Source: an uncultured Granulosicoccaceae bacterium
GTDB lineage: Bacteria; Pseudomonadota; Gammaproteobacteria; Granulosicoccales; Granulosicoccaceae
DNA length: 43,049 nucleotides
Assembly: GCA_938035525.1 (NCBI GenBank)
Contig: CALHOI010000010.1
Span: 1-43,049, forward strand
Direction: 5' to 3'
The notes beneath the pieces are model-generated. The model had not been told where the DNA came from. It did not search any database and saw only the letters and a program-made list of their open reading frames with translations. This document shows, piece after piece, positions 1,135 to 20,737 of this stretch. Position numbers and translations under genes: made by a program. The stretch's first letter is position 1, and every line of letters starts with the position of its first letter.

Positions 1135-4100
1135 TTACTGTTGCTTTAATACGGTCAATTCCACGCGACGGTTTAATCGCCGACCATTCTCTGTAGCATT
1201 GCTCGCGATTGGTCGAGACTCACCGTAGGCTCTGACCTTAAAACGGTGTTTTGCCACGCCTCTTTGCAATAAGTACTTTGCGACCGACAATGCGCGCTGT
1301 TTTGATAGTGCGGCATTGGATTCAACACTGCCAACATCATCGGTATGCGCAGCCAATTCAAAGCTGAGTGTCGGATGCAATTGCAGCGTGTTTGTCACCG
1401 CATTGAGGCTGGCTTGTGCTGATGCTGTTAATTGCGCAGATTTGCTCGGAAAATTAACGCCCTCAATAACGCCTGCCAGTAGTGCGCAACCCAGAGAATT
1501 TATAGCAGCGCCTTGCCTGGTTCCCGGGCATCTGTCTGCTGCATCCAATACGCCGTCATTGTCGGCATCGGCAGGCTTGGCAATCACCACAGCAGGTACT
1601 GGCTTAGGTACTGGCATGGGGGCAGGTGCCGCGACTGGAGCAGGCTCTACTTTTTTAACTATTTGCGGCAAAGGTTCTCGTTCAGATTTTTTACCCAAAC
1701 GATAAATTAAGCCCAGCTGTAAATAGTTGACGTCTTTTTCATAGGCATAGAATTCGGCCCTTACGCCTAAGCCCTTGCGGCTTGAATATTCCACACCTGC
1801 ACCGGCCAGTAATGCAGCTTTGTGATCCTGAATCAGATTAACGTCACCCTCTGTGGTGTTGTTCATTAAGCCATAACCGACACGGCCATAAGCAGACAAG
1901 CCGTTACGCACAACGTTGTGCCGGTTTTTACCAAGATAAAATAGTGCGCTTGCACCGAAGTTTTGATAACCAATGCTGCCACCGGTTGAGAGTTCGGCAT
2001 TACCCAATGAGGCGCCGTGCAATTCCAGAGAGCTCCATTTGTTGATATCCATACCTAAATTAATTTGCGCACCCATGGCACGAGACTCTGTTACTGATGC
2101 AGTATCAGAGTTACGTGGAACCGGGTTTAATGCGCTGGAACCGATACCAATGCCGGCGTACACATGACGTCCAAGACGATCGTGCTGGGATTGCGTTTGC
2201 GGTTCTGCTGAATCGACGTAGTTATTGTTGCTGGCACATGCGCTTAAACCAAGCACACTGGCCAATAGCAACAACACCGACTTTTTAGACCTAGCCGGTT
2301 GACGAACTTGTATGCGAGCTTGTTGGCGAACAAACAAAGCAAACAGTGCTGTTAGCAGCAGGGCCAACAGACCCGTATCCGATTTTGCTTTACCGCTCAG
2401 GTCGATGCTACAGCCGCTACCGGCAATACCGGTATGCCATTCAAGCTCACTACCTGCAATAGCCTGACTGATATCTGGCACACCATCACCATCAGTATCG
2501 GGTAGGTTTGCTCCCAGCGGTATGGTCTGGTTGGCCGCTGAATTTATTTGCACAAAGCCATCGCCATTATTATCCGGGTCGGCAGAATCGATAATGCCAT
2601 CCGCATCACTATCAATAGCATTGGCAACAAAGTCGGCATCGGCAGTATCGTCAATGCCATCACCATCAGCGTCACTGCCGCCAGTCATGTCTGCGTCTAC
2701 CACGTCTGGTATACCATCGCTGTCAGAGTCCACAAAAGCATCGATAATACCGTCGCCATTAAGGTCGGTACCGCCGGCTTCTTCCAGGTCTGATTTGCCA
2801 TCGTTATCTCTGTCGAGGTCTAAGCGATCGGCCTGACCATCGTTGTCGGTATCGACTTCGAGTTGTGGAGCAACAGCGACCGAATCGTCGATACCGTCTT
2901 GATCATTGTCGATAAAATTATCGACTCGACCATCAAAATCGGTATCTGCGTCTGTGCCTAACGTTTCAAATAAATCTGACAAGCCATCGTTATCACTGTC
3001 TAAATCCTGATAGTCGGGCACGCCATCATTGTCAAAGTCATCGATATTCAATGGTGTGATGGTGACAAGATCATCCAATCCGTCGTTGTTGGCATCGGTA
3101 AATTCATCGATGATGCCGTTACCATCAGTATCGTTGCCATGCGCTTCGGTTGAATCAGTGATGCCGTCATTATCACTATCACGATCAAGGTAGTCGGGCA
3201 GGCCATCACTATCTGTGTCTATTGGCGTGTTGGCATCATCGCCGATTTCGATTGTGTCCGGGATGCCATCGTTGTCATCATCCAGATCGATTTGGTCGGG
3301 CACACCGTCACCGTCTGTATCTACCACGAAGTCAATTGTTTCTTCCGGTTCCGTAGGTGTTATTGGTTCAACTGGAACACCAGGCTCCGTCGGATTGACA
3401 GGAGTGATTGTATTAATTTGTGTATCAATATAATCTGGAATACCATCCTGATCAGAGTCAACCGGGTTGTTAGCATTATCGCCGGCTTCCTCGCTATCGG
3501 TTTGGCCATCGTTGTCTGCGTCAGTATCAATAAAGTTTGCAACACCATCCCCATCGCTGTCTATTGCACCTTCAATGCTGTCAGGAATACTGTCGTTATC
3601 GGCATCGGTATCGATGTAGTCGGCAACGCCATCAGCATCGCTATCGATGTTAGTCTCGACCGCATCGGTTATACCGTCGCCGTCAGAATCCACGTCCAGA
3701 TAATCAGGTTGTGCGTCACCGTCAGTATCAATTGGTAGCGAGCTGGTTGTATCACCAGAGTTACCGGCTTCTTCGGCATCACTGATGCCGTCAGCGTCAC
3801 TGTCTGTGTCTAAGTAATTAGGTGTACCATCGCCATCAACATCACCTGTACCTTCGATGGCATCGTCAATACCGTCGCCATCACTATCGGTATCAAAGGC
3901 GTTGCTGATGCCATCCCCATCGGTATCGGCATCAGTTTCACTGTCGTTGGGAATACCATCGCCGTCTATGTCGGCATCCAGGCTGTCGCTAATACCGTCG
4001 TTGTCAGTGTCGGGCTCAACGGGCGGAACAACGATAACCGGGTCAGTAATAGTGGTGTCGGGGTCCAGCGCATCGATGACACCATCGCCATCGGTATCGA

Positions 4101-7100
4101 CTGTGCCTTCGTCACTGTCACTCACCGCATCGCCGTCTGAATCTGTGTCCAGAAAGTCGGGTATTCCATCATTATCGGTGTCTATTGGTGTATCAGGATC
4201 AGCACCGGCCTCCAGAGAATCGTCAATACCATCGGCATCGCTGTCGGTGTCCAGGAAGTCGGGCACGCCATCAGCGTCACTGTCGGTAGGTTGTGTTGGG
4301 TTGGTACCGACTTCAACATTGTCAGGAATACCGTCTCCGTCACTGTCTAAATCGAGGTAGTTGGGTATACCATCCGCATTCTGGTCGCTGGTGCCTTCAT
4401 TGATATCCAGGTTACCGTCACCGTCAGCATCAGTATCAAGAAAGTTCGGTATACCGTCTGCATCGGTGTCAGTGGTGGTTTCAAGTGCATCGCCAATGCC
4501 GTCACCATCGCTATCGGTGTCAATAAAGTCAGGTGTACCGTCACCATCGGTATCGATGTCTTGTTCAACGTTATCAGGGATGCCGTCGCCATCGCTGTCG
4601 GGGTCTAGAACATTCGGTATACCATCGGCATCATTGTCATCGTTGCCGCCATTGGCTTCAATGATATCGTTAATACCATCAGCGTCGCTGTCTTCGTCAA
4701 GGTAGTCGGGAATAGCATCGCCATCGGTATCCAGCGGTACGTTCGGGTTGTCGCCAGCTTCTAATGAGTCGAGCAGGCCATCGCCATCACTGTCGGCATC
4801 CAGAAAGTTGGGTATGCCATCGCCTTCCGGGTCGATAGAACCTTCGACCGAATCGTCAATGCCATCGTTATCACTGTCAAGGTCCAGGTAGTTTGGTATG
4901 TTGTCACCGTCGGCGTCATCGGTGGTTTCACCGATGTTAGGTATACCATCACCGTCTATGTCGTTGTCTAAAAAGTTGGGTATGCCATCGTTGTCAGCGT
5001 CTCCGTTGCCGGCATCGGTGTCATTGATTCCATCGTTGTTGGAATCAACATCGAGCAAGTCAGCAATGCCATCGCCATCACTGTCCACAATACCTTCTAA
5101 TGTGTCGTCAAGGCCGTCGCCATCGGAGTCGGTATCGATGTAATCGGCAAGCCCGTCACCGTCTGTGTCAACCGGGTTGGCGGCGTCTGCACCCACTTCA
5201 ACAGCATCGTTTATACCGTCGCCGTCACTGTCCAGATCTTGATAATCGGGAATACCGTCAGCGTCCGTGTCTGTGGTGTTCGGAGCATTAGGTGCTTCTT
5301 CGCTGTCTGCAATGCCATCACCGTCCGCATCTGGATCAAGATAGTTTGGCAGGCTATCGCTGTCGATATCCAGCACACCTTCATCGCTGTCGTTAATACC
5401 GTCGCCATCTGAGTCGGTATCCTGATAGTTTGGAACACCATCATTGTCGGTATCGCTTGTGGTTTCGGCAGCATCGCCAATGCCGTCGTTATCTGAATCG
5501 GTTTCCAGGTAGTCAGCTACGCCGTCGCCGTCTGTGTCTGCAGTGCCTTCAGCACCATCGCCGATGTTGTCACCGTCTGAGTCCTGATCAATGTAGTTCG
5601 GCAGACCGTCGGCGTCTGGGTCGTTTGTGCCTTCAGCAGCATCACTGATGCCGTCGTTGTCTGAATCGGTTTCAAGGTAGTTGGCAATACCATCAGCATC
5701 GGTATCAACAAGACCCTCTGTTGCGTCTGGTATGCCATCGCCATCTGAATCCGCATCGAGATAGTTGGGGATGGTGTCGCCGTCGGTATCGCCTGTGCCT
5801 TCAATCAGGTCATCAATACCATCGTTGTCGGAATCGGTATCCAGATAATCGATGATGCCATCGCCATCAGTATCCAGTGGATTGGCGCTGTCAGTGCCTA
5901 CTTCGATAGCGTCGTTGATGTTGTCGCCATCACTGTCAAGATCCTGGAAGTTGGCAATGCCATCGGAATCGGTATCGACAGTGCCTTCAATAATGTCATC
6001 GATGCCGTCGCCATCACTGTCGGTGTCTTGAAAGTTGGCGATGCCATCAGCGTCAGTATCGATAGTGCCTTCAATGGCATCATTGATATTATCGCCGTCA
6101 GAATCTGTATCAATGTAGTTTGGCAGACCATCTGCATCAATGTCGACGGTGCCTTCAGCGCCGTCGCCAATGCCATCATCATCTGAATCCAGATCGATGT
6201 AGTTGGCAAGGCCATCAGCATCGGTGTCTACAATACCTTCGGCCGTATCGCTTATGCCGTCGTTATCAGAATCGGTTTCTAGGTAGTTGGCAATACCATC
6301 TGTGTCAGTATCAACCACACCTTCTGTTGCGTCAAGAATACCATCGTCATCTGAATCGGTATCGATGTAATTAGCGGTGCCGTCGGCATCGGTATCGATG
6401 GCGCTTTCGATGCTGTCGTCAATGCCATCGTTATCAGAGTCGGTATCCAGATAATTTGCTTGCCCGTCAGCATCGGTGTCGATTACACCTTCGTCGATAT
6501 CGAGAATACCGTCGCCGTCTGAATCTGTATCCAAATAGTCAGGGATAGTGTCAGAATCTGTGTCCCCGGTACCTTCGATAACATCATCAATGCCATCGTT
6601 GTCTGAATCGGGGTCTTGAAAATCCAGTAAACCATCGTTGTCTGTGTCTGTCGGGTTTGCGCCGCCAATGGCACCTTCTGTTGCGTCATCGATGCCGTCA
6701 TCATCGCTGTCGAGGTCAAGATAGTCTGGCGTGCCGTCAGCATCGGTATCGGTATTGGTTTCGAACGCATCGGTAATACCATCATCGTCACTGTCGGTGT
6801 CGATGTAGTTGGCAGAACCATCGGTATCGGTATCAGTAGTACCTTCTATGGCGTCGGCTATTCCGTCTGCATCAGAATCGGTATCGGTGTAGTTGGCAAA
6901 CCCGTCGCCATCGGTATCGACAACGCCTTCTATTGCGTCATCAATACCATCGGCATCTGAATCTGTGTCCAGTGAATTGATAATGCCGTCGCCATCGGTA
7001 TCAACTGCGCCTTCAATAGCATCGCTTATACCGTCGTTGTCATCGTCAGGATCATAAAGATCAGCTATGCCGTCAGCATCGGTGTCAATCAGTACCGTGT

Positions 7101-8883
7101 TTGTGGCCGTGCGAAAGTGCGACGTAAGATCGGCACCAATTAAATCGATGTAGGTGACTGTTATTGTATCGCCGCCAGTTGATGAAAGTATGCCATCTTC
7201 ATCAGTGCTTGCATTGGCTGTTGTGGCCAGGTTGCCGGTAAACACGTTTGTGTCAACACCGGTTTCAGTGAGTACCACTGTTTCGATTTCACCGCTTGTA
7301 TCATTGACCACCGTGACGGTTGTAGTTTCTATAACGGCAGAATCGGTGTTTAGATCTTGATCGCTAACCTCTATATTCAGTTGATTGCCGGGAAGGCTCT
7401 CAGCGTTTACAGTAACCGTGCCGTCAAAGTTTTCAAAGACACCTTCTCCGTCTACCACAGCAGCGGGTGAGTAGGTAATAGTGCTTAAACCGTAAACGTA
7501 GGTATCGATGTATCGCTCGTTACCAAAGCCTGATCCTGTAAAATTACCCCAGGTGTGTTTGCCTTCCGGGGTATTGGACAATGCACCGTCGGGTGTATTA
7601 CTGGTACCTCCTGCACCCAGTAGAGTGATGTCGTCCCAATACACGCGCGCAGGAACGACGGTGCCATCCGGGTTAGCCAGATTAATCGTTAAACCTGATT
7701 CTGTACCACCACTGGTTTCTACGTCGTTGGCTATAAAGTGGTATTCACCCATGTGCATTTCTACTTGAGCGAAGTAAACACCCAATGGAGGTGCGTTGCC
7801 CGCAGCATCGTTTCCATCCCACAAAACCTGGTTGAAACCAGTAACAGCTTCACCCAGCAGTTGCCGGTCACCAGCGTTGCCATAGACTCCATCTTGATTT
7901 AAATCAATCAATATTGAGTAGGTGCCGGGTACGTCACTGGTAAATTCGAAAAAACCCGAATCCTGCACACCAACGGTTGCGCCTGGTGAAATACCGTAGT
8001 CTTCGCCGTCACTATCGACAAAACGAATATCAGTTAGTGTTGGTGCTGTAGTGGGACGCGGATCAGAAATAGCCGGATAGGAAAGATACAAAGGATGCTG
8101 GTAGTCAACAGCGTTACCTATACGCTCAGTACTGTAGCTTGAGTTCGGTGCTCTAACGCCAATAGAGTTTGCCACCAGATTGTATCCGAAACCGGCAAAG
8201 TTATTTAAATCTAGCTGCCACACATAGTTGGTGCTGGGTCGACCGCCTGGTATCAGTGCATAAAAGTTCGCATCGGTAGCATCTGCCTCATCAAAGCTGC
8301 CTGCGTTAACACCGAAGGTATAGCCCCAGAAACGGCCCGAGCTGGCAGTAGGGTCTGGGTTGGTTGTGGTATCGGGTGTAATGCTAAAGTCGTAGCGTAA
8401 AAATTTACTGTCTGTAAATCCGATGTGGCTGGTGTTTTGTAAGACCATTCTGTAAGCGCCGGTCTCTGTTGCTACATGGCGCATCGGGTTGGTCAGTGGC
8501 GCATCCATAGGGTCAGCACAATCAACATTACTACCACTGAGGGTTTGCGTGTCAATTGGTGTGGTGTTGTTTGAGGGTGCGTAGAATTCAACGCTGATTG
8601 CATCGGTGTTGGTCGATCCGCACAAGGACACGTTAATGACTTCACCGACTGCTAATACATCGATATAAACGGATGCAGAAGTATCGTCGCTGGCGTAGCC
8701 TTGTGCCAGTGCCGCTTCGTGGTCCAGCAGATTCTGACCCAATCCCATTTGCGCTACGCCTTCGGCGTGTATGTTTGCGCTTATTGCCATCAGCAGAGCT
8801 GTGGTCAATGTGTTGATTTTAAATCGACTGAGACCAATGTTTGAGTGGGCAGTGGTTGCTCTGAGCGCTTTTCTGACCTTCAT
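1135..8883 (-). CDS. Giant thrombospondin type 3 repeat / OmpA-family surface protein
   Basis: This encodes a 2582-residue exported protein. Residues 1-40 form a long signal peptide (basic start, hydrophobic core, probable cut after ANIHA). Residues 41-599 hold beta-rich extracellular modules, including a FlgD-like Ig stretch near 300-390 (DLNQDGVYGNAGDRQ, VLWDGNDAAGN). Residues 600-2140 are about 52 acidic DxDxDG repeats. Around 2155-2198 comes SGCSIDLSG, a hydrophobic stretch (2171-2185) and four spaced arginines, like a C-terminal sorting signal. A lipobox LSAC with Cys2216 follows at once. Next are an OmpA-type barrel (about 2225-2400), a Pro/Ala-rich linker, one more Ca repeat and an OmpA peptidoglycan-binding domain (2475-2582, with HTDDVGS and NRRVELTVL). 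A role in adhesion or envelope attachment is inferred. The reading frame is unbroken, but the middle looks like two genes joined. Confidence 0.9.
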   Translation of the reverse strand: MKVRKALRATTAHSNIGLSRFKINTLTTALLMAISANIHAEGVAQMGLGQNLLDHEAALAQGYASDDTSASVYIDVLAVGEVINVSLCGSTNTDAISVEFYAPSNNTTPIDTQTLSGSNVDCADPMDAPLTNPMRHVATETGAYRMVLQNTSHIGFTDSKFLRYDFSITPDTTTNPDPTASSGRFWGYTFGVNAGSFDEADATDANFYALIPGGRPSTNYVWQLDLNNFAGFGYNLVANSIGVRAPNSSYSTERIGNAVDYQHPLYLSYPAISDPRPTTAPTLTDIRFVDSDGEDYGISPGATVGVQDSGFFEFTSDVPGTYSILIDLNQDGVYGNAGDRQLLGEAVTGFNQVLWDGNDAAGNAPPLGVYFAQVEMHMGEYHFIANDVETSGGTESGLTINLANPDGTVVPARVYWDDITLLGAGGTSNTPDGALSNTPEGKHTWGNFTGSGFGNERYIDTYVYGLSTITYSPAAVVDGEGVFENFDGTVTVNAESLPGNQLNIEVSDQDLNTDSAVIETTTVTVVNDTSGEIETVVLTETGVDTNVFTGNLATTANASTDEDGILSSTGGDTITVTYIDLIGADLTSHFRTATNTVLIDTDADGIADLYDPDDDNDGISDAIEGAVDTDGDGIINSLDTDSDADGIDDAIEGVVDTDGDGFANYTDTDSDADGIADAIEGTTDTDTDGSANYIDTDSDDDGITDAFETNTDTDADGTPDYLDLDSDDDGIDDATEGAIGGANPTDTDNDGLLDFQDPDSDNDGIDDVIEGTGDTDSDTIPDYLDTDSDGDGILDIDEGVIDTDADGQANYLDTDSDNDGIDDSIESAIDTDADGTANYIDTDSDDDGILDATEGVVDTDTDGIANYLETDSDNDGISDTAEGIVDTDADGLANYIDLDSDDDGIGDGAEGTVDIDADGLPNYIDTDSDGDNINDAIEGTIDTDADGIANFQDTDSDGDGIDDIIEGTVDTDSDGIANFQDLDSDGDNINDAIEVGTDSANPLDTDGDGIIDYLDTDSDNDGIDDLIEGTGDTDGDTIPNYLDADSDGDGIPDATEGLVDTDADGIANYLETDSDNDGISDAAEGTNDPDADGLPNYIDQDSDGDNIGDGAEGTADTDGDGVADYLETDSDNDGIGDAAETTSDTDNDGVPNYQDTDSDGDGINDSDEGVLDIDSDSLPNYLDPDADGDGIADSEEAPNAPNTTDTDADGIPDYQDLDSDGDGINDAVEVGADAANPVDTDGDGLADYIDTDSDGDGLDDTLEGIVDSDGDGIADLLDVDSNNDGINDTDAGNGDADNDGIPNFLDNDIDGDGIPNIGETTDDADGDNIPNYLDLDSDNDGIDDSVEGSIDPEGDGIPNFLDADSDGDGLLDSLEAGDNPNVPLDTDGDAIPDYLDEDSDADGINDIIEANGGNDDNDADGIPNVLDPDSDGDGIPDNVEQDIDTDGDGTPDFIDTDSDGDGIGDALETTTDTDADGIPNFLDTDADGDGNLDINEGTSDQNADGIPNYLDLDSDGDGIPDNVEVGTNPTQPTDSDADGVPDFLDTDSDADGIDDSLEAGADPDTPIDTDNDGIPDFLDTDSDGDAVSDSDEGTVDTDGDGVIDALDPDTTITDPVIVVPPVEPDTDNDGISDSLDADIDGDGIPNDSETDADTDGDGISNAFDTDSDGDGIDDAIEGTGDVDGDGTPNYLDTDSDADGISDAEEAGNSGDTTSSLPIDTDGDAQPDYLDVDSDGDGITDAVETNIDSDADGVADYIDTDADNDSIPDSIEGAIDSDGDGVANFIDTDADNDGQTDSEEAGDNANNPVDSDQDGIPDYIDTQINTITPVNPTEPGVPVEPITPTEPEETIDFVVDTDGDGVPDQIDLDDDNDGIPDTIEIGDDANTPIDTDSDGLPDYLDRDSDNDGITDSTEAHGNDTDGNGIIDEFTDANNDGLDDLVTITPLNIDDFDNDGVPDYQDLDSDNDGLSDLFETLGTDADTDFDGRVDNFIDNDQDGIDDSVAVAPQLEVDTDNDGQADRLDLDRDNDGKSDLEEAGGTDLNGDGIIDAFVDSDSDGIPDVVDADMTGGSDADGDGIDDTADADFVANAIDSDADGIIDSADPDNNGDGFVQINSAANQTIPLGANLPDTDGDGVPDISQAIAGSELEWHTGIAGSGCSIDLSGKAKSDTGLLALLLTALFALFVRQQARIQVRQPARSKKSVLLLLASVLGLSACASNNNYVDSAEPQTQSQHDRLGRHVYAGIGIGSSALNPVPRNSDTASVTESRAMGAQINLGMDINKWSSLELHGASLGNAELSTGGSIGYQNFGASALFYLGKNRHNVVRNGLSAYGRVGYGLMNNTTEGDVNLIQDHKAALLAGAGVEYSSRKGLGVRAEFYAYEKDVNYLQLGLIYRLGKKSEREPLPQIVKKVEPAPVAAPAPMPVPKPVPAVVIAKPADADNDGVLDAADRCPGTRQGAAINSLGCALLAGVIEGVNFPSKSAQLTASAQASLNAVTNTLQLHPTLSFELAAHTDDVGSVESNAALSKQRALSVAKYLLQRGVAKHRFKVRAYGESRPIASNATENGRRLNRRVELTVLKQQ
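2464..7086 (-). repeat. About 52 tandem 28-residue Ca-binding (TSP3-like) repeats
   Basis: I count about 52 units across residues 600-2140 of the giant protein. The basic unit is 28 residues (84 bp) of the form DTDxDGxxNYxDTDSDxDGIxDAxEGxx, so each holds two Asp-rich calcium loops. Some units are 31-34 residues, extended by short inserts such as VGTDSANPL or GGANPT. The first 34 units are the most regular. The later ones vary in spacing and are interrupted by two Pro/Val/Thr-rich linkers. DNA identity between units is modest, which suggests an old array rather than recent amplification. Confidence 0.9.
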
Positions 8884-9793: not shown

Positions 9794-12361
9794 TCATGAT
9801 TTCGGTTTTAAATTTTGTGGGTCATACAATGGCTTGTAGCCAACCGATTCGAGCTTTAATTTGTACTGCTCGCCAAAGTACTCCATGAGAAACTCTCGAC
9901 CCTCATGACAGTGTTCGAATGGCAGGTAACCCAACGCAATGTTTTTACCGATGGTTGGTCCGTACACCATACTAGTGGTATATGAACGCCGACCCAGGGA
10001 ATCAATCAGTGCCTCTCCGGTGTCAATATCCATTATAGGGCTATGGCCAACGGGGTAACGGGCAATTCCGGCCGAATCAATGTTATTGACCATGGTAAAC
10101 GTGCACAAATAGGCACTTTGGTGGTCTTTTTCTTTGAAGGCTAAATGTGCGGCCTTACCGTGAAAGTCGGCAGCTTTGACTTTAGGACGAGCCAAATCGG
10201 CTTCAAATAAATTGTAGTTGGTGAGTAAATCGGCGTTTTGTAAACGCAGGCTTTTTTCCAGGCGCCGACTGTTGGCGTAGGTTTCAATACCAATTGGCGT
10301 AACGCCCTCGTTGGCCAATGCGTCCCACACGCTCAGGCCATCATCATAGTTGAAATGTAACTCCCAACCTTGCTCGCCCACATAGGAAATTCTGAAAGCC
10401 GCAACGCTAACACCATTTATAGTGATGGTTTTTACAGCCACAAACGGAAAGTTTTTATCGCTGAGTTCTTCTGGTTTATCCACAACTTTTTCGAGCGTGG
10501 TGCGGGCATTAGGGCCCCACAAACCCAAACACGCATAGTCGGTGGTTTTATCGGTAATTTCTACGTTGCTTAAACCGCGCGATTCTTTCATGCGTTTTAA
10601 CCAGACATAGTCTCTGGCCCCTGAATCACCGCCATCCATTACTCGATAATGGTTATCGCTGAGCCGTACTATGGTCAGATCGGCGCGAACACCGCCATTG
10701 TGATCGAGAAAGTGGGTATAAACACCTTTACCGATGGGGGTATCTGCACCCACTTTAGCAACGCAAACGTATTCCATTAGTTGCTCGGCATCAGGTCCTT
10801 CAATGTCGATGATGGCAAAGTGAGACAAGTTAACCATGCCAACGTCTTCTGAGAGTTGCAGGTGCTCGGCATTGGATACACGCCAGAAATGACGGTTATC
10901 CCATTCGTGTTCGCGCACTGGCACTTGGTCTGAAAATTTTTCAAGTAAGTGCTCATTGCTTGCATAACCGTGCGCGCGTTCCCAACCGGCTGCTTCCATA
11001 AAATAGCCGCCCAGCGCTTTTTCTCTCTCGTAAAACGGACTACGTCTTAATCCACGACCGGCTGTGTAAGGTTCTCGGTCGTGTACGGCGGGGTTATAAA
11101 TTTTAAACGCAGTTTCGTAGCACCGGTCGTGTATGTACTGTTCTTCTTGCTGGAAAGGATAGTAGCGGGCTACATCAATCGAGCTGTGATCAAGTTCTGT
11201 GTGTCCGTCGGTCATCCAGTCGGCTATAACCTTACCGGTGCCTGGACCGTCTTTTACCCAAACCGAAACGGCATACCACAGTCCTCGTACATTGGCTGAT
11301 TCCCCAATGGATGGACCGCCATCGGCAGTGACTTGCAATAAACCGTTGAATGAACGCTTTTCATCAAAACCCAGCTCACCCAGGATAGGGGTTAGCTCCA
11401 TTGCGCGCTCCAGCGGCTCCATGATCTGGTCCATTTCAAGATCGCGTTGCGAAGGCGAGAGACGTGCTTGCTCTTTTTCCAGCAGGTCTCGTGGGTGACA
11501 CATACGCGGTTCTTGTTCTTCGTAATATCCCCACTCAATCATGCCGCCCTCGGGTGTGGTTGGATCGCCTGTGTCACGCAGGTAGGCCGAGTTACCCTGG
11601 TCGCGCAGTAATGGGTAGCCGATATCTTTGCCAGTGCCCTCAAACTCTTTAAATGGACCAAACCACAACAGCGGATGATCAACCGGCATGACCGGCAGGT
11701 CTTCTCCTGCCATCTCCGCGATTAAACGTCCCCATAGTCCAGCACAAACAACGGCGTATTCGCACTCAATAGTGCCGCGCGTGGTTTCAACCGCTTTGAT
11801 GCGACCGTTCTCAATTTTAAGATCTGTGGCTGACGTATTGGCGAACGTGGTTAGTTTGCCGGTTTTTTCGGCGTTTTCAACGAGCTCACCAGCGGCAACT
11901 TGGGAGCGAGGTGCAACCAGACCGGCATCAGGATCCCAAAGCGCTCCCTGAATCATGTCTTCTTCGAGCAATGGCATTTTTTCTTTTGCTTCGGCAGCGC
12001 TGATCATGCATGCGTTGGTGCCGAAGGCTTTTCCTGAGGCGACTTTTCGTTGCAGCTCTGCCATGCGATCATCGTCACCCACTCGGGCCACTTCAAGCCC
12101 GCCCACTTTTTCATAGCGACCCATTTTTTCGTAGAAGTCGATGCTGTACATGGTGGTGTAGCAGGTCATGTGATCGTGGGCGGTTGCGTAACAAAAGTCT
12201 GACGCGTGCGCAGTTGAGCCAATATCGGTAGGAATGGCTGATTTATCAATGCCGACAATGTCGTCCCATCCTCTTTCAATGAGATGATGTGCCACGCAGG
12301 CGCCGACGATGCCACCTTGTCCAATGATGACGACTTTTGCTTTTTTGGGGAATACGGCCAT
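9794..12361 (-). CDS. Dimethylglycine/sarcosine dehydrogenase-like FAD-GcvT flavoprotein
   Basis: This is an oxidative N-demethylase of the DMGDH/SarDH class, about 855 residues. Proteins of this class oxidise N-methyl groups on FAD and pass the C1 unit to tetrahydrofolate in a GcvT-like domain. From the ATG at 12361, residues 8-400 form the DAO/FAD domain, with VVIIGQGGIVG at the start. GSTAHA places a His at about 52, where this family attaches FAD covalently; the usual Trp before it is Ala here. A middle FAO-type domain follows, then the aminomethyltransferase fold (ANSRRLEKSLR, YVGEQGWELH). The frame also allows a TTG start at 12415; neither start has a good ribosome site and I prefer the ATG. 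The exact substrate (dimethylglycine, sarcosine or another N-methyl amine) cannot be read from sequence. Confidence 0.85.
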   Translation of the reverse strand: MAVFPKKAKVVIIGQGGIVGACVAHHLIERGWDDIVGIDKSAIPTDIGSTAHASDFCYATAHDHMTCYTTMYSIDFYEKMGRYEKVGGLEVARVGDDDRMAELQRKVASGKAFGTNACMISAAEAKEKMPLLEEDMIQGALWDPDAGLVAPRSQVAAGELVENAEKTGKLTTFANTSATDLKIENGRIKAVETTRGTIECEYAVVCAGLWGRLIAEMAGEDLPVMPVDHPLLWFGPFKEFEGTGKDIGYPLLRDQGNSAYLRDTGDPTTPEGGMIEWGYYEEQEPRMCHPRDLLEKEQARLSPSQRDLEMDQIMEPLERAMELTPILGELGFDEKRSFNGLLQVTADGGPSIGESANVRGLWYAVSVWVKDGPGTGKVIADWMTDGHTELDHSSIDVARYYPFQQEEQYIHDRCYETAFKIYNPAVHDREPYTAGRGLRRSPFYEREKALGGYFMEAAGWERAHGYASNEHLLEKFSDQVPVREHEWDNRHFWRVSNAEHLQLSEDVGMVNLSHFAIIDIEGPDAEQLMEYVCVAKVGADTPIGKGVYTHFLDHNGGVRADLTIVRLSDNHYRVMDGGDSGARDYVWLKRMKESRGLSNVEITDKTTDYACLGLWGPNARTTLEKVVDKPEELSDKNFPFVAVKTITINGVSVAAFRISYVGEQGWELHFNYDDGLSVWDALANEGVTPIGIETYANSRRLEKSLRLQNADLLTNYNLFEADLARPKVKAADFHGKAAHLAFKEKDHQSAYLCTFTMVNNIDSAGIARYPVGHSPIMDIDTGEALIDSLGRRSYTTSMVYGPTIGKNIALGYLPFEHCHEGREFLMEYFGEQYKLKLESVGYKPLYDPQNLKPKS

Positions 12362-12634
12362 AGGTTCTGATTGCTCGATATTCAGCGCTGAGGCTGGACG
12401 GATATTTAGTGCCAACTATTTTGCTTAATTTTAACCCTGATCGCACCTGCAATGGGCAGCTACAGGGCCGGGTTCTGTACGTATTCGTCGCATATGGCCT
12501 AAAAATAGCACCTTGTAGTAGCCAGAATTATGAACACTACATGCAGTTACATATCGTGTTCTGCTGCTGGTGCTAGACTCAGATACATATCAAATTTAAC
12601 GCAGTTATTCTCAATGGAATTGAAGCAGGACATC

Positions 12635-15328: not shown

Positions 15329-17164
15329 CTAGGATAAACCATCGAATTCAAGATGGCACTCTATTATGTGTCCCAAAGCGCCTACTCGTCGAGGTGGGTC
15401 AAGTTCGGCGCATGTGCCCTCAATGGCCATTGGGCAGCGTGTATGAAACGGGCAGCCTTTTTCGGTTAGCTTGACGTCACCCTGTACAGCGCTTTGCGCC
15501 TCACGAGATTCAGATGACTCTTCCAGCCAACCCACCCGGGTTTCTGGTACCGACGAAATAAGCAAACGTGTATAAGGATGGTAGGGCGGAGACAAAACTC
15601 GATCAGTTGGTCCTTGCTCGGCTACCCGGCCGGCATACAGTACGACTATTTCATCGGCAAAAGAGGCAACGGTGGATAAATCGTGACTGATAAAAATAAA
15701 TGACACGCCAAGTTCTCTGCGTAGTCGTTTTAGCAGTTCAATAACATTCGCACCGACAATGGTATCAAGCGCCGAAGTTACCTCGTCGCACAAAACAACT
15801 TCCGGATTCGCGGCCAGTGCTCTTGCCAGGCTGACTCTTTGCTTTTGGCCGCCTGATAGCTCGTGTGGATATCGATCAGCGAACTGCACAGGCAATTCAA
15901 CCAGCTCCAGTAACTCATCGACGCGTTTTCTAACATCTTTACCGCTCGCCAGATCATAGAACTGCACTGGTCTGCCAATAATGTCTTTAATGCGTTGCCG
16001 TGGGTTAAGTGCAGTATCAGCCATTTGATAAACGAACTGGACTTTTCTTAGTTGGTCTGTTGTGCGTTCGCGTACTGAGGGTGGTAACGGTTCCCCATCG
16101 AGTAAAATATCACCTTGAGCCGGTGGAAGCAGCCCCGCCATGACTCTTGCCAGGGTTGACTTCCCGCAGCCCGATTCACCAATGACGCCAACGGTTTTAC
16201 CGCGCTCGATCGCAACGTTAATGTCTCTTAGTACTTGTACTGCGGCTTTGCCGTTACGGACTTTTCCATACCCGGCATCCACTTGCTTAACTTCCAGTGC
16301 TGGTGATGTGCGTAAATGTTTGTCAGAGCTTTGTTCGCCTTGACCTGGTTCTGGTAAGGGTTTGATTGCATCCATGAGTCTTTTTGTATAAGGATGCTGC
16401 GGTGAATTTATAATAGTTTCAGTTGGTCCAGCTTCTTTTACTTCGCCGTTGTACAACACCACTATGTGATCGGCGATTTGTGCCACTACAGCCAAATCAT
16501 GTGTTACGTATATCGCTGCCGCTTCCTCAACTTTAATAACATGCTTGAATGCCTTAAGCACTTCAATTTGAGTGGTTACATCCAGAGCGGTTGTTGGCTC
16601 GTCTAAAACCAATAGGTCGGGGTCACCACACAATGCCATGGCTGCCATTAATCGCTGCAGTTGACCACCGGACACTTGGTGCGGATAACGAGAGCCAATG
16701 TTTTCAGGGTCAGGTAACTCTAGTGCTTTATATAAAGCCAGCGCTTTTTCGTCGGCTTGCTGCTGTGTTTTTGAGCCGTGTAACACAGCGGCTTCAGTGA
16801 CTTGTTCGTTAATGAGTATGGAAGGGTTAAAGGTCGCAGCAGCGCTTTGCGCAAGGTAAGCCACTTTTTCTCCACGCAGCGGCCGAAGTTCGTTGACGGA
16901 CATTTTTGTCACGTCGTGTCCTAACAGTTTTGCTTGCCCGCCAGCAAAAATCAACCCGGGTTTACAGTAACCTAAGGCCGATAGCGAAATGGTGGTTTTT
17001 CCGGACCCTGATTCGCCAATCAGCGCGACAACTTCTCCGCGCCTTACTTTAAAATTAACACCTTTGACTATGGGAAGCTCGCTTTTATCGTCTCTTAGTG
17101 CGTTGATACTAAGATCGATAGCTTCAAAAACGATATCGTCGTTTTGATTGCTTTTATCTGACAC
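15329..17164 (-). CDS. Peptide ABC transporter, fused double ATP-binding protein (DppD-DppF type)
   Basis: This 611-residue cytoplasmic protein powers dipeptide/oligopeptide-type import. It carries two complete ATPase cassettes. The first has Walker A GESGSGKTT near residue 53, signature VSGGQLQRL and Walker B LLVLDEPTT. The second has GESGCGKST near 330, LSGGQKQRV and VVLCDEVTSALD. Both have the switch His (VTHDL, ISHDL). The Cys-containing oligopeptide tail (CPFHTRCPMA) is present at the C-terminus after the second cassette. This layout equals DppD plus DppF in one chain, as in GsiA or YejF. It follows the DppC-like gene by 3 bp. The substrate cannot be fixed from the ATPase. Confidence 0.95.
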   Translation of the reverse strand: MSDKSNQNDDIVFEAIDLSINALRDDKSELPIVKGVNFKVRRGEVVALIGESGSGKTTISLSALGYCKPGLIFAGGQAKLLGHDVTKMSVNELRPLRGEKVAYLAQSAAATFNPSILINEQVTEAAVLHGSKTQQQADEKALALYKALELPDPENIGSRYPHQVSGGQLQRLMAAMALCGDPDLLVLDEPTTALDVTTQIEVLKAFKHVIKVEEAAAIYVTHDLAVVAQIADHIVVLYNGEVKEAGPTETIINSPQHPYTKRLMDAIKPLPEPGQGEQSSDKHLRTSPALEVKQVDAGYGKVRNGKAAVQVLRDINVAIERGKTVGVIGESGCGKSTLARVMAGLLPPAQGDILLDGEPLPPSVRERTTDQLRKVQFVYQMADTALNPRQRIKDIIGRPVQFYDLASGKDVRKRVDELLELVELPVQFADRYPHELSGGQKQRVSLARALAANPEVVLCDEVTSALDTIVGANVIELLKRLRRELGVSFIFISHDLSTVASFADEIVVLYAGRVAEQGPTDRVLSPPYHPYTRLLISSVPETRVGWLEESSESREAQSAVQGDVKLTEKGCPFHTRCPMAIEGTCAELDPPRRVGALGHIIECHLEFDGLS

Positions 17165-17167
17165 GTG

Positions 17168-18085
17168 CTAAAGCCTGTTTGATAGCCGGCCACCGCTGTG
17201 TGCAGAGACATCGTCTACGATTAAGTTGATGGCAACCGTTAGCGTTGCAATGGAAAGAGCAGGCGCTATGACGCTAAACACAGACTCGCCGTATTGCAGA
17301 GCGCCGAGGTTTTCGCGCACCATGGAACCCCAGTCAGCTTGAGGGGGTTGCACGCCAAGCCCCAAAAAACTCAGGCTGGAAATAAATAAAATGACGTATA
17401 TTAACCGCAAGCCGAAATCCGTTATCAGTGGCATTCTTGCGTTAGGCCAGATTTCCTTTGTGATTATCCACCATCGACCTTCACCGCGAGCTTGAGCCGC
17501 TTCAACGTAGTCGGATACTTTTATCTCCATACCCAACGCTCTTGATAACCTGAATATCACACTCGAATAAATCAGGCCGGCGGTGACTATTAAAACCGGT
17601 ATGGACGAACCCACTGCGGCAACCACCACAAGTCCAAGCATGATGCTGGGTAAACTAAGCAAGGCATCGTTTATCCTGCTGATCACCATGTCAACTTTTG
17701 GCGATGAGACGGCGGCACCAATACCTAAAACCACACCGACAAAATACGCCAGCACGGTTGCCAGGAATGAAATACCCATGGTGCGCCCAGCACCATACAT
17801 GATGCGTGAAAGTACATCGCGGTCCGAGTCGTCTGTACCGAGCCAGGCACCAGGTTGTGGTTTTTGAAACTCACTGTATGCATCGGGAAATGGCAAATCG
17901 TTTTCACCGTAAGGGGCAACGAACGGTCCCAGCAATGCAATCAATACCCAAAAGGCAACAACAATAACGCCCAGCCATCCGGTAAAGGAGAATTTGAACT
18001 TGCCACTGGGGGCGCTGTCTGGCAGCTCATCAAAGCTGACTCCAGCATCATAGGGCGCAACGTAATGCTCAGTTTGTTCGCTCAT
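17168..18085 (-). CDS. Peptide ABC transporter permease, DppC type
   Basis: This 305-residue inner-membrane permease is the second of the pair in the peptide importer. It has an N-terminal membrane anchor (about residues 33-54), the extracytoplasmic stretch typical of DppC (PQPGAWLGTDDSDRDVLSR) and the BPD_transp_1 region with five more segments. The cytoplasmic coupling loop reads YVEAAQARGEGRWWIITKE, followed by FLGLGVQPPQADWG, a hallmark of this subfamily. The start overlaps the stop of the preceding permease by 4 bp (ATGA), showing translational coupling. The length is normal for the family. Confidence 0.95.
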   Translation of the reverse strand: MSEQTEHYVAPYDAGVSFDELPDSAPSGKFKFSFTGWLGVIVVAFWVLIALLGPFVAPYGENDLPFPDAYSEFQKPQPGAWLGTDDSDRDVLSRIMYGAGRTMGISFLATVLAYFVGVVLGIGAAVSSPKVDMVISRINDALLSLPSIMLGLVVVAAVGSSIPVLIVTAGLIYSSVIFRLSRALGMEIKVSDYVEAAQARGEGRWWIITKEIWPNARMPLITDFGLRLIYVILFISSLSFLGLGVQPPQADWGSMVRENLGALQYGESVFSVIAPALSIATLTVAINLIVDDVSAHSGGRLSNRL

Positions 18086-19032
18086 TTCGGGTGCCTCAAT
18101 CGCGGATTGGACGCGAAGGCTGCGATATCTGCAATGAGCATCAGAATGACATAGGTTAAGCAGAACAGCATACCTAAGCCTTGTATCAGTACAAAGTCGC
18201 GTGTTTGAACGCCTTGCACAATAAGAGTCGCTAAGCCTGGATAGCCAAAATAAACTTCAACGACGATCACGCCGGTAACAAGGTATGCCAGATTCAGTGC
18301 AACAACGTTGACAATGGGTCCCAGCGCGTTGAGCAGTGCATGCCTGAAAATAATGCGCTTTCTGGGCACGCCTTTTAAAATGGCCATTTCAACATAAGGT
18401 GAGCTCATGACGTTTAGCACTGCGGCTCGGCTCATGCGAATTAATTGAGATGCAATAACAAAACACAAAGTTGTAATGGGTAAGGCAAAGTGTTTAATCA
18501 ATTCGAAAAAACCTTTACCTTCGATGCTGCCAACCACCACCGCGTTTCCCATACCAAGCCAGAACACAAACAGTAGTACCAGCAACGTGGCGGTAAAGAA
18601 TTCGGGGGCGGCCACCAGAGACACAGAAATAAAGGTCAGCACACGATCATAAATGCTGCCTGGAAACATGGCGCCCAGAATGCCCAGCATCAACGATATA
18701 GGCACACCAATAAGAGCGGTTAATCCGCTCACAATTAACGTGTATTTATAACGATCACTGATAAGGTCAGTAATGGGCACGTCAGCGGCCAGTGACACGC
18801 CAAGATCGCCTGAAACGAAATTCTTAAGCCAGGTCCAGTACTGCACAATCATGGGCTGATCTAAACCCAGGCGCTCGCGCATTGCGGCAATGTTTTCCGC
18901 GGTAGCCGCTTGCCCTAAGCGAATTTGCGCCGCGTCGCCCGGCAGAACTTTTGTGCCGAAAAAAATAATGATCGACACAGCCAGCACCGTTAGTAGGCCA
19001 ACGGCCAGGCGTTTTACAATGAGTGGGAACAT
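18082..19032 (-). CDS. Peptide ABC transporter permease, DppB type
   Basis: This 316-residue inner-membrane permease has the DppB layout. It opens with a first membrane segment (RLAVGLLTVLAVSIIIFF) and the conserved early part LPGDAAQIRLGQAAT and LGLDQPMIVQYWTWLK. The remaining membrane segments follow, with a coupling loop containing VEMAILKGVPRKRIIFRHA. It pairs with the DppC-like protein, whose gene overlaps its stop. The 76-bp gap to the binding-protein gene upstream holds a hairpin terminator, so it is probably made in smaller amounts than the binding protein. No convincing ribosome site is visible before the ATG. Confidence 0.95.
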   Translation of the reverse strand: MFPLIVKRLAVGLLTVLAVSIIIFFGTKVLPGDAAQIRLGQAATAENIAAMRERLGLDQPMIVQYWTWLKNFVSGDLGVSLAADVPITDLISDRYKYTLIVSGLTALIGVPISLMLGILGAMFPGSIYDRVLTFISVSLVAAPEFFTATLLVLLFVFWLGMGNAVVVGSIEGKGFFELIKHFALPITTLCFVIASQLIRMSRAAVLNVMSSPYVEMAILKGVPRKRIIFRHALLNALGPIVNVVALNLAYLVTGVIVVEVYFGYPGLATLIVQGVQTRDFVLIQGLGMLFCLTYVILMLIADIAAFASNPRLRHPK

Positions 19033-19056
19033 AAAAGCTGTTGGTGTAGAGACAGG

Positions 19057-19088
19057 AAAAACCCGCCACTATTAATCAGTGGCGGGTT
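19057..19088 (-). terminator. Intercistronic terminator between binding-protein and permease genes
   Basis: Arms AACCCGCCACT (19060-19070) and AGTGGCGGGTT (19078-19088) form a perfect 11-bp stem with a 7-nt loop. On the minus strand a run of five T follows directly. It lies 20 bp after the binding-protein stop and before the permease start, the usual place for a partial terminator that gives excess binding protein. Confidence 0.85.
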
Positions 19089-19108
19089 GTTTGTATTAGC
19101 TAATGGAT

Positions 19109-20737
19109 TTAGCTGTCACGCCATAAGGTGACTGGCGCTTCGGCGCCACCGAAGTTATTGAGCGGAACGGTTGTTCTACCTTGTACATGGCTTGCTGCCG
19201 CATCCACATAGTTTCTGTGGATAGGAATAGACATACCATTTTCCTCGTGAATCATGGTTTGCAGATCGCAGTACGCTTGCTTGCGTTTGTCCGGGTCGGT
19301 GATGCCGCGAGAACTAACCAATAGCTGGTCGAAGTTATCGTTTTTCCAGCGAGTTTCGTTCCAGGCTGCATCGCCTTTGAACGCTAAGGTCATCATAATG
19401 TTAGCGGTTGGACGCATGTTCCACGCAGCAACGCAAATTGGCTCTTTAAGCCACACCGAACCCCAATAGCCATCAGTGGTGACTTTTTTCACGTCGAAGT
19501 TCATGCCAATTTTCTTGCCTTCTCGTTGCATGAATAACACTTGATCAACAGCACCTGGTGCCACTTCGGCGGCAACCACGGGAATGGCGGTAGACCCAAT
19601 ACCAGACTTTTCAAAATGGAATTTGGCCATATCCGGGTCAAGCTCGCGTTGCGGAATGTCTGGGCAATGATCAAAGTAGGCCGGTGCAATTGGGTGGTCG
19701 TTGCCCAGTGATGCCTGGCCTTTATAAACACCTTTAACAAGCCGTTGTCTGTCCATGAGCATTTGCATGGCTTTGTGCAAATGAACATTGCTTGAGCTAT
19801 CGACGTCAAAACGCGGCGTTACATTGATGTACGCGCCAGATTCCAGTGCCCAGATTTCTTTACCTTCGGCGGCCTCTACCTGACCGATTGCTTTGGGCGG
19901 TAAATTCACCATGGCATCGATATCGCCTGCCAGAAAAGCGTTTAGTCGTGCAACCGGATCACCAATACCATAGTGTTCCAGTTCGTCTAGATAGCCACCT
20001 TCTCCATAGTAGTTCTCAAAGCGTGTACCAACGGCACGAACACCGGGTTTGAATTCCTTGATTTTGTATGGACCTGTACCAACAGGGTTGGTGAAGTCTG
20101 TTGTGCCGTCTTGAAGAATTTTAAAATGAAATGTACCCAGTGCTATGGGTAAATCGGCGTTTGGTGAAGACAAGATAGCTTTGACTTCGTGGCTGTTAAC
20201 CTTCTCCCATTTCTCAATCATGGAAACCAGCGATGAGGCTTTGGAGATGGAGTCTGCACCCAAATGACGATTCATGGTGAAAAGCACATCGTCGGCGGTT
20301 AGTTCTTTGCCGTCGTGGAATTCAACACCTTTACGAATTTTGAAAGTCCACTCTGTGGCGGTATCATTGGAGAGCACTTCTTCTGCAAGTTCTGGTTCGT
20401 AACCCAGCTCTGGTGTTAGGCGTGTTAGCGAGCCATAGAACATACGGCCTCGAAAGTAGTCGGCGGCAGAGGTGAACAAGGCGGGGTCTAGCGTGTCGTT
20501 TGGACCGTGCTGATCGGCTGCCATGATCAGCTTGCCACCGGTTTTCGGGGTTGCTGCAACCGCATCACTCATGTTGCCAAACAAGATACCCGCAGAGCTT
20601 GCTGATGCACCTGCGGCCATCATCCAGCCCATAAACTCACGCCGATTAATACCACGCTTCACCATCTTGAGCATTTCACGCTGCTCAGACTGGCTCAGAT
20701 TAGCCATGGTTGGGTCGTTTCGTTTTATACCTGACAT
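19109..20737 (-). CDS. Peptide-type ABC transporter substrate-binding protein, Tat-exported (SBP_bac_5)
   Basis: This 542-residue periplasmic binding protein of the DppA/OppA family feeds the permeases downstream. A twin-arginine signal is visible: RREFMGWMMAAG, with the arginine pair at residues 32-33, and a probable cut after AVAA. It is preceded by an unusually long polar N-region. The mature part has the family marks GGKLIMAADQHGPNDTLDPA, ADDVLFTMNRHLG, GTGPYKIKEFKPG and VARLNAFLAGDIDAM. AGGAG lies a few bases before the ATG. Tat export is common among SBP_bac_5 proteins and does not prove a cofactor. The family binds peptides but also glutathione, opines and other amines, so the ligand is open. 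Genes for an MttB homologue (divergent) and a 2OG oxygenase (same operon) hint at an unusual amino-acid-like ligand. Confidence 0.93.
   Translation of the reverse strand: MSGIKRNDPTMANLSQSEQREMLKMVKRGINRREFMGWMMAAGASASSAGILFGNMSDAVAATPKTGGKLIMAADQHGPNDTLDPALFTSAADYFRGRMFYGSLTRLTPELGYEPELAEEVLSNDTATEWTFKIRKGVEFHDGKELTADDVLFTMNRHLGADSISKASSLVSMIEKWEKVNSHEVKAILSSPNADLPIALGTFHFKILQDGTTDFTNPVGTGPYKIKEFKPGVRAVGTRFENYYGEGGYLDELEHYGIGDPVARLNAFLAGDIDAMVNLPPKAIGQVEAAEGKEIWALESGAYINVTPRFDVDSSSNVHLHKAMQMLMDRQRLVKGVYKGQASLGNDHPIAPAYFDHCPDIPQRELDPDMAKFHFEKSGIGSTAIPVVAAEVAPGAVDQVLFMQREGKKIGMNFDVKKVTTDGYWGSVWLKEPICVAAWNMRPTANIMMTLAFKGDAAWNETRWKNDNFDQLLVSSRGITDPDKRKQAYCDLQTMIHEENGMSIPIHRNYVDAAASHVQGRTTVPLNNFGGAEAPVTLWRDS

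Follow-up and report, generated by a model that had tools for sequence, protein, structure and literature searches.

The window, by which we mean the whole 43,049-nucleotide stretch of DNA analysed here, comes from the genome of an uncultured Granulosicoccaceae bacterium, a draft in 114 contigs that is 88% complete. Its minus strand carries a single frame in which a large repeat protein is followed by an outer-membrane barrel with an OmpA domain. The parts of this frame, with the basis of each assignment in brackets, are as follows.

1135..8883, minus strand: whole fused open reading frame, 2582 aa (ORF translation)
8764..8883, minus strand: predicted N-terminal signal peptide, residues 1-40, ending in NIHA (translation; putative cleavage site)
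2464..7086, minus strand: thrombospondin type 3 (TSP3) repeat region, about residues 600-2140 (Pfam TSP_3, 12 stretches; edges set by eye)
2326..2421, minus strand: internal JDVT-CTERM-like sorting signal, residues 2155-2186 (NF033191 and tail HMM)
2410..2412, minus strand: Cys2158, predicted MrtJ lipidation and cleavage site (conservation in joint alignments)
2329..2373, minus strand: first membrane segment, residues 2171-2185 (hydrophobicity; helix in the AlphaFold2 model)
2281..2328, minus strand: positively charged loop, residues 2186-2201, predicted to be cytoplasmic, whose core 2191-2201 is not conserved (sequence; comparison with P0002)
2239..2280, minus strand: second membrane segment, an internal lipoprotein signal, residues 2202-2215, with lipobox LSAC (sequence)
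2236..2238, minus strand: Cys2216, predicted lipidated N terminus of a second product (sequence; residues 2208-2219 identical in 12/12 positions with P0002)
1696..2163, minus strand: eight-stranded outer-membrane barrel, residues 2241-2396 (AlphaFold2 strands, Foldseek, Pfam)
1168..1452, minus strand: OmpA peptidoglycan-binding domain (PF00691, Foldseek)

At the joint between the two halves, G2155-S-G-C2158 is followed by the hydrophobic segment 2171-2185, the Arg-containing loop 2186-2201, SVLLLLASVLGLSAC with Cys2216, the barrel and the OmpA domain; written out, the joint reads GSGC2158-SIDLSGKAKSDTG-LLALLLTALFALFV-RQQARIQVRQPARSKK-SVLLLLASVLGLSA-C2216. The initial annotation had placed a sorting-type signal and then a lipoprotein signal in one frame here, and that arrangement is confirmed in the 2582-codon frame. 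Pfam assigned OMP_b-brl / OmpA_membrane, plus OmpA, to the barrel half. An AlphaFold2 model of residues 2103-2582 (11-row alignment, mean pLDDT 66.6) showed eight barrel strands and, at low confidence, two helices at the joint. The Foldseek matches listed included OmpA barrels (for example 1bxw) and OmpA-type C-terminal domains, the joint itself being too poor to read. For the model's alignment (A3) we took 11 of the 16 proteins P0001-P0016, with residues 2103-2582 of the window protein, and set aside P0008, P0009, P0011, P0015 and P0016, which are the proteins without the Cys.

We searched 57 genomes from the window's own genus, family and class for the barrel-OmpA region. Matches were found in 55 of them, often many per genome, and among those listed some lay in frames near 400 aa and others in frames of 1300-5500 aa. 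Altogether 78 loci were gathered, 76 with a barrel match (L003 and L008 were dropped for want of one). The frame was open for more than 200 aa upstream in 36 of the 76 and open to the contig start in L051. Two of these 37 loci were left out of the tree and tables: L073, which has the full hairpin and brings the fused count to 36/37, and L069, a standalone protein with a long N-terminal part. The initial annotation had proposed comparing fused and split relatives, and the 74 labelled loci make that comparison possible: 35 are fused (the window included), 14 have a separate tagged repeat gene just upstream and 25 have neither. In-frame stops in L014, L022 and L048 are ordinary gene ends.

In a tree of 75 barrel-OmpA rows (the 74 labelled loci and the database protein P0002), the contrast of fused with all other states cost 12 changes, of which starred branches force at least 9, and the three states together cost 16; these counts cannot distinguish gains from losses, and the tree includes three long end branches. 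To judge from the tree, fused and split forms alternate among relatives. Because P0002 is fused, the hairpin is common to 35 loci and 14 split counterparts exist, the window fusion is, on this comparison, no local accident. Two fused paralogues, L001 (G000:C11) and L024 (G029:C192), come from different genera of the family and have a near-identical joint and very short branches; this likeness, which sets them apart from most pairs, possibly reflects transfer or contamination. Some fused copies have a long acidic, Asp-rich or Ala-rich linker between signal peptide and barrel, namely L073 (G018), L174 (G347), L175 (G307) and L130 (G044).

The first signal resembles the sorting tags that end separate genes. 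The NCBIfam model NF033191 (JDVT-CTERM) matched residues 2155-2186 with 24-25 bits (E 1.3e-5 to 2.5e-5), under its curated cut-off of 27 bits, and was the sole NCBIfam model at the joint at E<=0.01. A Cys motif, a membrane helix and an Arg-rich end are present, as in JDVT-CTERM tags; the signal does not stand at the extreme C terminus, since about 396 residues come after it, and it lacks the DP that is the relatives' consensus ahead of the helix. With Cys2158 present, the joint does not have the Gly-rich motif without Cys of the GlyGly-CTERM type. We also built a hidden Markov model from 13 gene-terminal tails, omitting the tail of L002, which has no Cys tag and belongs to another repeat type. 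This tail HMM gave the window joint 30.0 bits, or 24.3 bits when run on the whole protein, against a best score of 7.0 bits on 700 shuffled joints, so the window joint is more than a chance likeness.

Across the fused relatives, the tail HMM matched 32 of the 35 internal joints at iE<1e-3, and the three that failed (L075-L077) lack the Cys and instead have a Gly-rich motif like that of GlyGly-CTERM tags. NF033191 itself, at E<=0.01, recognized 26/35 internal joints and 13/14 terminal tails. A Cys stands at the position of Cys2158 in at least 90% of the 35 fused joints (alignment A1) and in every one of the 11 Cys-type proteins selected for A3; the Cys is missing in 5 of the 15 database relatives of the window protein, the same five that A3 omits. 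At the sequence level, the internal signal equals the gene-terminal sorting signal.

The second half of the protein opens with a hydrophobic signal ending in a lipobox Cys (LSAC-A, the next residue not being Asp), which lies not at a protein N terminus but internally, at residues 2202-2215. Every one of the 35 fused joints has a loop with a net charge of at least +3 and a second segment ending in a lipobox (22) or an AxA site (13), under a rule that was fixed after the joints had been seen, was widened once (a first, slightly different version gave 34/35) and was applied to homologues, which are not independent. The same rule was passed by 53 of 182 control internal segments (lipobox 5, AxA only 48), numbers that are indicative, as the control frames include some possible non-genes. 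In the first segments of the same 35 proteins, a lipobox occurred in 0/35 and an AxA site in 11/35. AxA alone is common by chance (48/182 controls), and the lipobox contrast is, as an indication, the sturdier part of the evidence for the second signal. The lipobox call of L048 is doubtful: the motif lies inside the segment, with AxA sites after it. Among fused joints outside the family, 12/14 passed the rule, and L127 (VSA-E) and L147 (GQA-D) failed it.

The nearest relative separates what is kept at the joint from what is not. P0002, a fused protein of 2320 aa, is the sister of the window protein in the tree (support 100/100) and 83% identical to it over barrel and OmpA domain. The sorting motif (residues 2147-2172) is identical in 23/26 positions and the lipobox stretch (2208-2219) in 12/12; by contrast, the loop core 2191-2201 agrees in 1/11 positions, with about 16-20 residues inserted around it, and the 13 residues after the lipobox stretch agree in 4/13. 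Both predicted cut sites are kept and the piece between them drifts, which is the pattern expected of a loop that would be discarded. The same comparison bears on an earlier proposal that two point changes had joined two adjacent genes here. The codons on which it rested, AGG at 2290-2292 and CAA at 2299-2301, are present, but their one-base distance from ATG and TAA carries little information. We rejected this origin, since fusion is widespread and P0002 and many other relatives are fused with different loops, the one in P0002 being longer.

Both proteases that could act on such tags are encoded in the window genome, as a search for C-terminal sorting proteases suggested in the initial annotation showed: MrtJ, the JDVT-CTERM protease (104.9 bits, cut-off 75), and rhombosortase (152.6 bits, cut-off 84), the latter adjoined by GspG, GspH and GspL over cut-off. 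The mrtJ gene of this genome overlaps another barrel-OmpA gene. At L081 (G000:C20, 1468-3067 and 1-1200), mrtJ shares nucleotides with the 3' end of a barrel-OmpA gene, and 3' of mrtJ on the same strand lies a frame of >2300 aa with an LEPRVLYSA motif at its start. MrtJ was over cut-off in 32 of 36 family genomes, the other four being 74-88% complete. Cys-type fused joints without MrtJ occur in two of these four, G016 (88% complete; L012/L052) and G020 (76% complete; L044/L047), which speaks against the reading developed below, although incomplete assembly may be the cause.

The linkage of the two genes is wider than this genome. We fetched 30 loci of the 36 MrtJ places over cut-off, and in 26/30 a barrel-OmpA-type match lay upstream of MrtJ on the same strand, its end at most 110 nt from the MrtJ match in 23/26. 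The loci without an upstream barrel were in two genomes outside the family, at L104 (contig edge) and at L115. Outside the family, 11 genomes had MrtJ over cut-off: in five, a tagged repeat gene is followed by a barrel-OmpA gene and then by mrtJ; G213 has mrtJ preceded by a barrel gene starting at the contig edge; and in the other five (G297, G136, G110, G087 and G224) no barrel gene was found in the stretch round MrtJ. In a second genome set, each of the four MrtJ places over cut-off directly follows a barrel match that shares its contig and strand, and this match is in turn preceded by a tagged gene. Because of this linkage, the barrel-OmpA proteins look like part of the MrtJ sorting system.

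We then compared tag type with protease content. In a first draw of 274 genomes of the class, the family was present at E<=1e-15 in 31, of which 28 lie outside the window's own family. Of these 28, 25 were used (14 fused, 11 split), G095 and G229 being left out for lack of a tag at the best locus and G305 for lack of a locus; the tag type of a genome was taken as that of its best-scoring barrel locus. MrtJ was over cut-off in 9/9 Cys-type genomes versus 2/16 no-Cys genomes (G087 and G224; Fisher p 2.7e-5, uncorrected for relatedness), and for fused joints alone in 3/3 versus 1/11 (p 0.011). G110 and G237, from one genus, differ in tag type and MrtJ alike. Rhombosortase was over cut-off in 24 of the 25 genomes, the exception, G136, having a Cys-type tag. 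A second draw of 369 genomes, 36 of which had the family at E<=1e-20, added eight outside the family, with MrtJ in 4/4 Cys-type and 0/4 no-Cys genomes; genera already present in the first set account for seven of the eight, which makes this closer to a repeat than to an independent test. Over both draws (33 outside-family genomes), MrtJ accompanied 13/13 Cys-type and 2/20 no-Cys tags. One internal place can thus, by these tag assignments, hold tags fitting two unrelated proteases, and therefore a cutting site fits better than a plain hairpin. G347 and G307 have a Cys-type operon, yet no-Cys fused copies too.

Taken as a polyprotein, the product of the window frame is likely, at roughly three in four, to be processed at both signals, yielding a pair of partner proteins at the surface. 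Cleavage by MrtJ at Cys2158 and by signal peptidase II at Cys2216 is the likeliest mechanism. The N-terminal signal peptide would export the repeat part until helix 1 halts, its Arg-rich end left on the cytoplasmic side; the loop would reverse the chain, and helix 2, serving as a signal peptide, would set export going again. MrtJ would then cut at Cys2158 and leave a surface-anchored repeat protein, processing of Cys2216 by Lgt and signal peptidase II would free the barrel-OmpA lipoprotein for the outer membrane, and the hairpin would be discarded after both cuts. The products may form a 1:1 TraA/TraB-like pair, an outward-facing repeat adhesin and a barrel that anchors the adhesin to the outer membrane and peptidoglycan. 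Two proteins had been offered before as one outcome, and they are the likeliest predicted products. Split and fused states are both common among relatives. The suggestion that the repeat protein is released appears less likely than surface anchoring, by analogy with MYXO-CTERM and MrtX.

Several other readings start from the same frame. Left uncut, the fusion would be a single envelope-spanning protein whose retained hairpin tethers its two halves to the inner membrane, a reading in agreement with the continuous frame and with a hairpin predicted as two helices. We consider this unlikely: a lipobox or AxA site ends the second segment of all 35 joints and a Cys occupies the place of Cys2158 in 90% or more, the loop drifts freely in the closest pair, MrtJ tracks the Cys, split relatives make two proteins, and an outer-membrane barrel lipoprotein would presumably be stuck at the inner membrane. 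A single cut, with one of the two signals, sorting tag or internal signal peptide, persisting as a dead relic, would account for the slightly low JDVT-CTERM score and the absent DP of the window joint, yet in the comparison with P0002 no part of the joint is better kept than these two motifs, and this reading is quite improbable.

The lipoprotein could instead be made besides the fused chain from an internal translation start, as the initial annotation had allowed, and GTG/TTG codons do stand at the beginning of the window's second segment. No Shine-Dalgarno (SD)-like core lies ahead of these codons, however, and across the 35 fused joints any ATG, GTG or TTG between the two segments is absent in seven and a start codon with an SD-like core ahead occurs in only two; internal initiation therefore does not hold as a general way and is very improbable for the window. 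Finally, a draft assembly as fragmented and incomplete as this one might contain an error, in assembly or sequencing, that joins two genes, but the fusion recurs at the homologous position in P0002 and in dozens of other genomes. As an explanation for the family, such an error is already refuted, and for the window we regard its chance as negligible.

If the double cut takes place, the fused frame is a natural means of producing a surface adhesin and its anchor 1:1, barrel-OmpA proteins are partners of MrtJ substrates, and MrtJ gains a substrate that is easy to assay and that sets free a second protein when cut. We more tentatively, and at slightly less than even odds, extend this to a general two-cut device of gammaproteobacteria, composed of sorting tag, basic turn and signal peptide, that would deliver an adhesin and its OmpA partner in equal amounts, with a first signal interchangeable between MrtJ and rhombosortase, and that would amount to a TraA/TraB-like contact system outside myxobacteria. 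TraA/TraB-type pairs are thereby suggested to reach far beyond that group.

Part of this design has a precedent. In Myxococcus xanthus, MXAN_5598 has an internal MYXO-CTERM followed by an outer-membrane barrel and OmpA, and its authors propose a fusion of two genes with a processed N-terminal part (Guo, Haft and Wall, mBio 2025, PMC11980579). According to the same source, MrtX cuts TraA at the Cys-type MYXO-CTERM, the Cys is needed and the cut also occurs in E. coli (PMC11980579). MXAN_5598, compared here by its published description alone, is like the window protein in its large adhesin-like N-terminal part, internal Cys-type tag, barrel and OmpA domain; it is unlike it as a single case with MYXO-CTERM/MrtX in another phylum, and, as far as that description goes, no internal signal peptide is described. 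By contrast, the system found here has JDVT-CTERM-type or no-Cys tags, dozens of cases, split counterparts and a signal of signal peptidase I or II type at every tabulated joint. The kind is already known from this one proposed case.

Myxobacterial outer-membrane exchange offers the second comparison. TraB consists of a barrel, a TSP3 linker and OmpA, and TraA and TraB are described as forming 1:1 complexes (PMC12045341, PMC6372800, PMC3325183). The window's second half has the same domain order (its linker was read from the translation), and, going by these accounts, both systems comprise a tagged repeat protein and a putative or known barrel-TSP3-OmpA partner. They report TraA and TraB as coming from overlapping but separate genes, whereas the window has one fused frame, and TraA, unlike the window protein, has a PA14-like domain and Cys-rich repeats. 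The TraB model scored 75.8 bits on the window against a cut-off of 700, its match covering only the C-terminal part with the OmpA domain. JDVT-CTERM/MrtJ two-gene systems have been reported in beta- and gammaproteobacteria (Haft 2024, via PMC11980579). As summarized there, they share the tag model and protease equivalog with the window; the window tag, unlike theirs, is internal, and our split operons put barrel-OmpA between tag gene and mrtJ.

GlyGly-CTERM/rhombosortase systems resemble the relatives L076, L077, L130 and L139, which have a Gly-rich no-Cys tag at the same joint, and differ from the window, whose own joint is of the Cys type; the NCBIfam GlyGly-CTERM model recognized 2/25 outside-family joints and tails at E<=0.01. 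Sorting signals away from the C terminus are not confined to this family: Abdul Halim reportedly described, in 2017, an internal tripartite signal cut by archaeosortase ArtA. That case is like the window in its non-terminal signal; it is archaeal and not known to be followed by an outer-membrane lipoprotein. The Bradyrhizobium cytochrome b-c1 precursor (fbcH) is, like the window protein, a bacterial polyprotein with an internal signal peptide, and signal peptidase cuts it at that internal signal sequence, in one cut; it is not known to have a sorting-type signal. To our knowledge, bacterial polyproteins with two different membrane-level processing signals have hardly been described. We found no earlier account of the double-signal design in the literature listings searched on internal-signal polyproteins, TSP3-OmpA-CTERM, Granulosicoccus OmpA or rhombosortase-OmpA fusions. 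As far as those listings go, the internal signal peptide, the scale, the alternation of fused and split forms, the linkage of barrel-OmpA to MrtJ and the co-variation of tag and protease are new.

The genes beside the polyprotein, without visible link to it, perhaps form a methylamine-related cluster. They comprise, at 9797-12415, 15332-20737 and 21114-22697 of the window, a GcvT/sarcosine-oxidase-like protein, a dipeptide/nickel-type ABC transporter and an MttB-like methyltransferase, the last of which scored 290.8 bits, below the cut-off of 525, in an uninterrupted frame.
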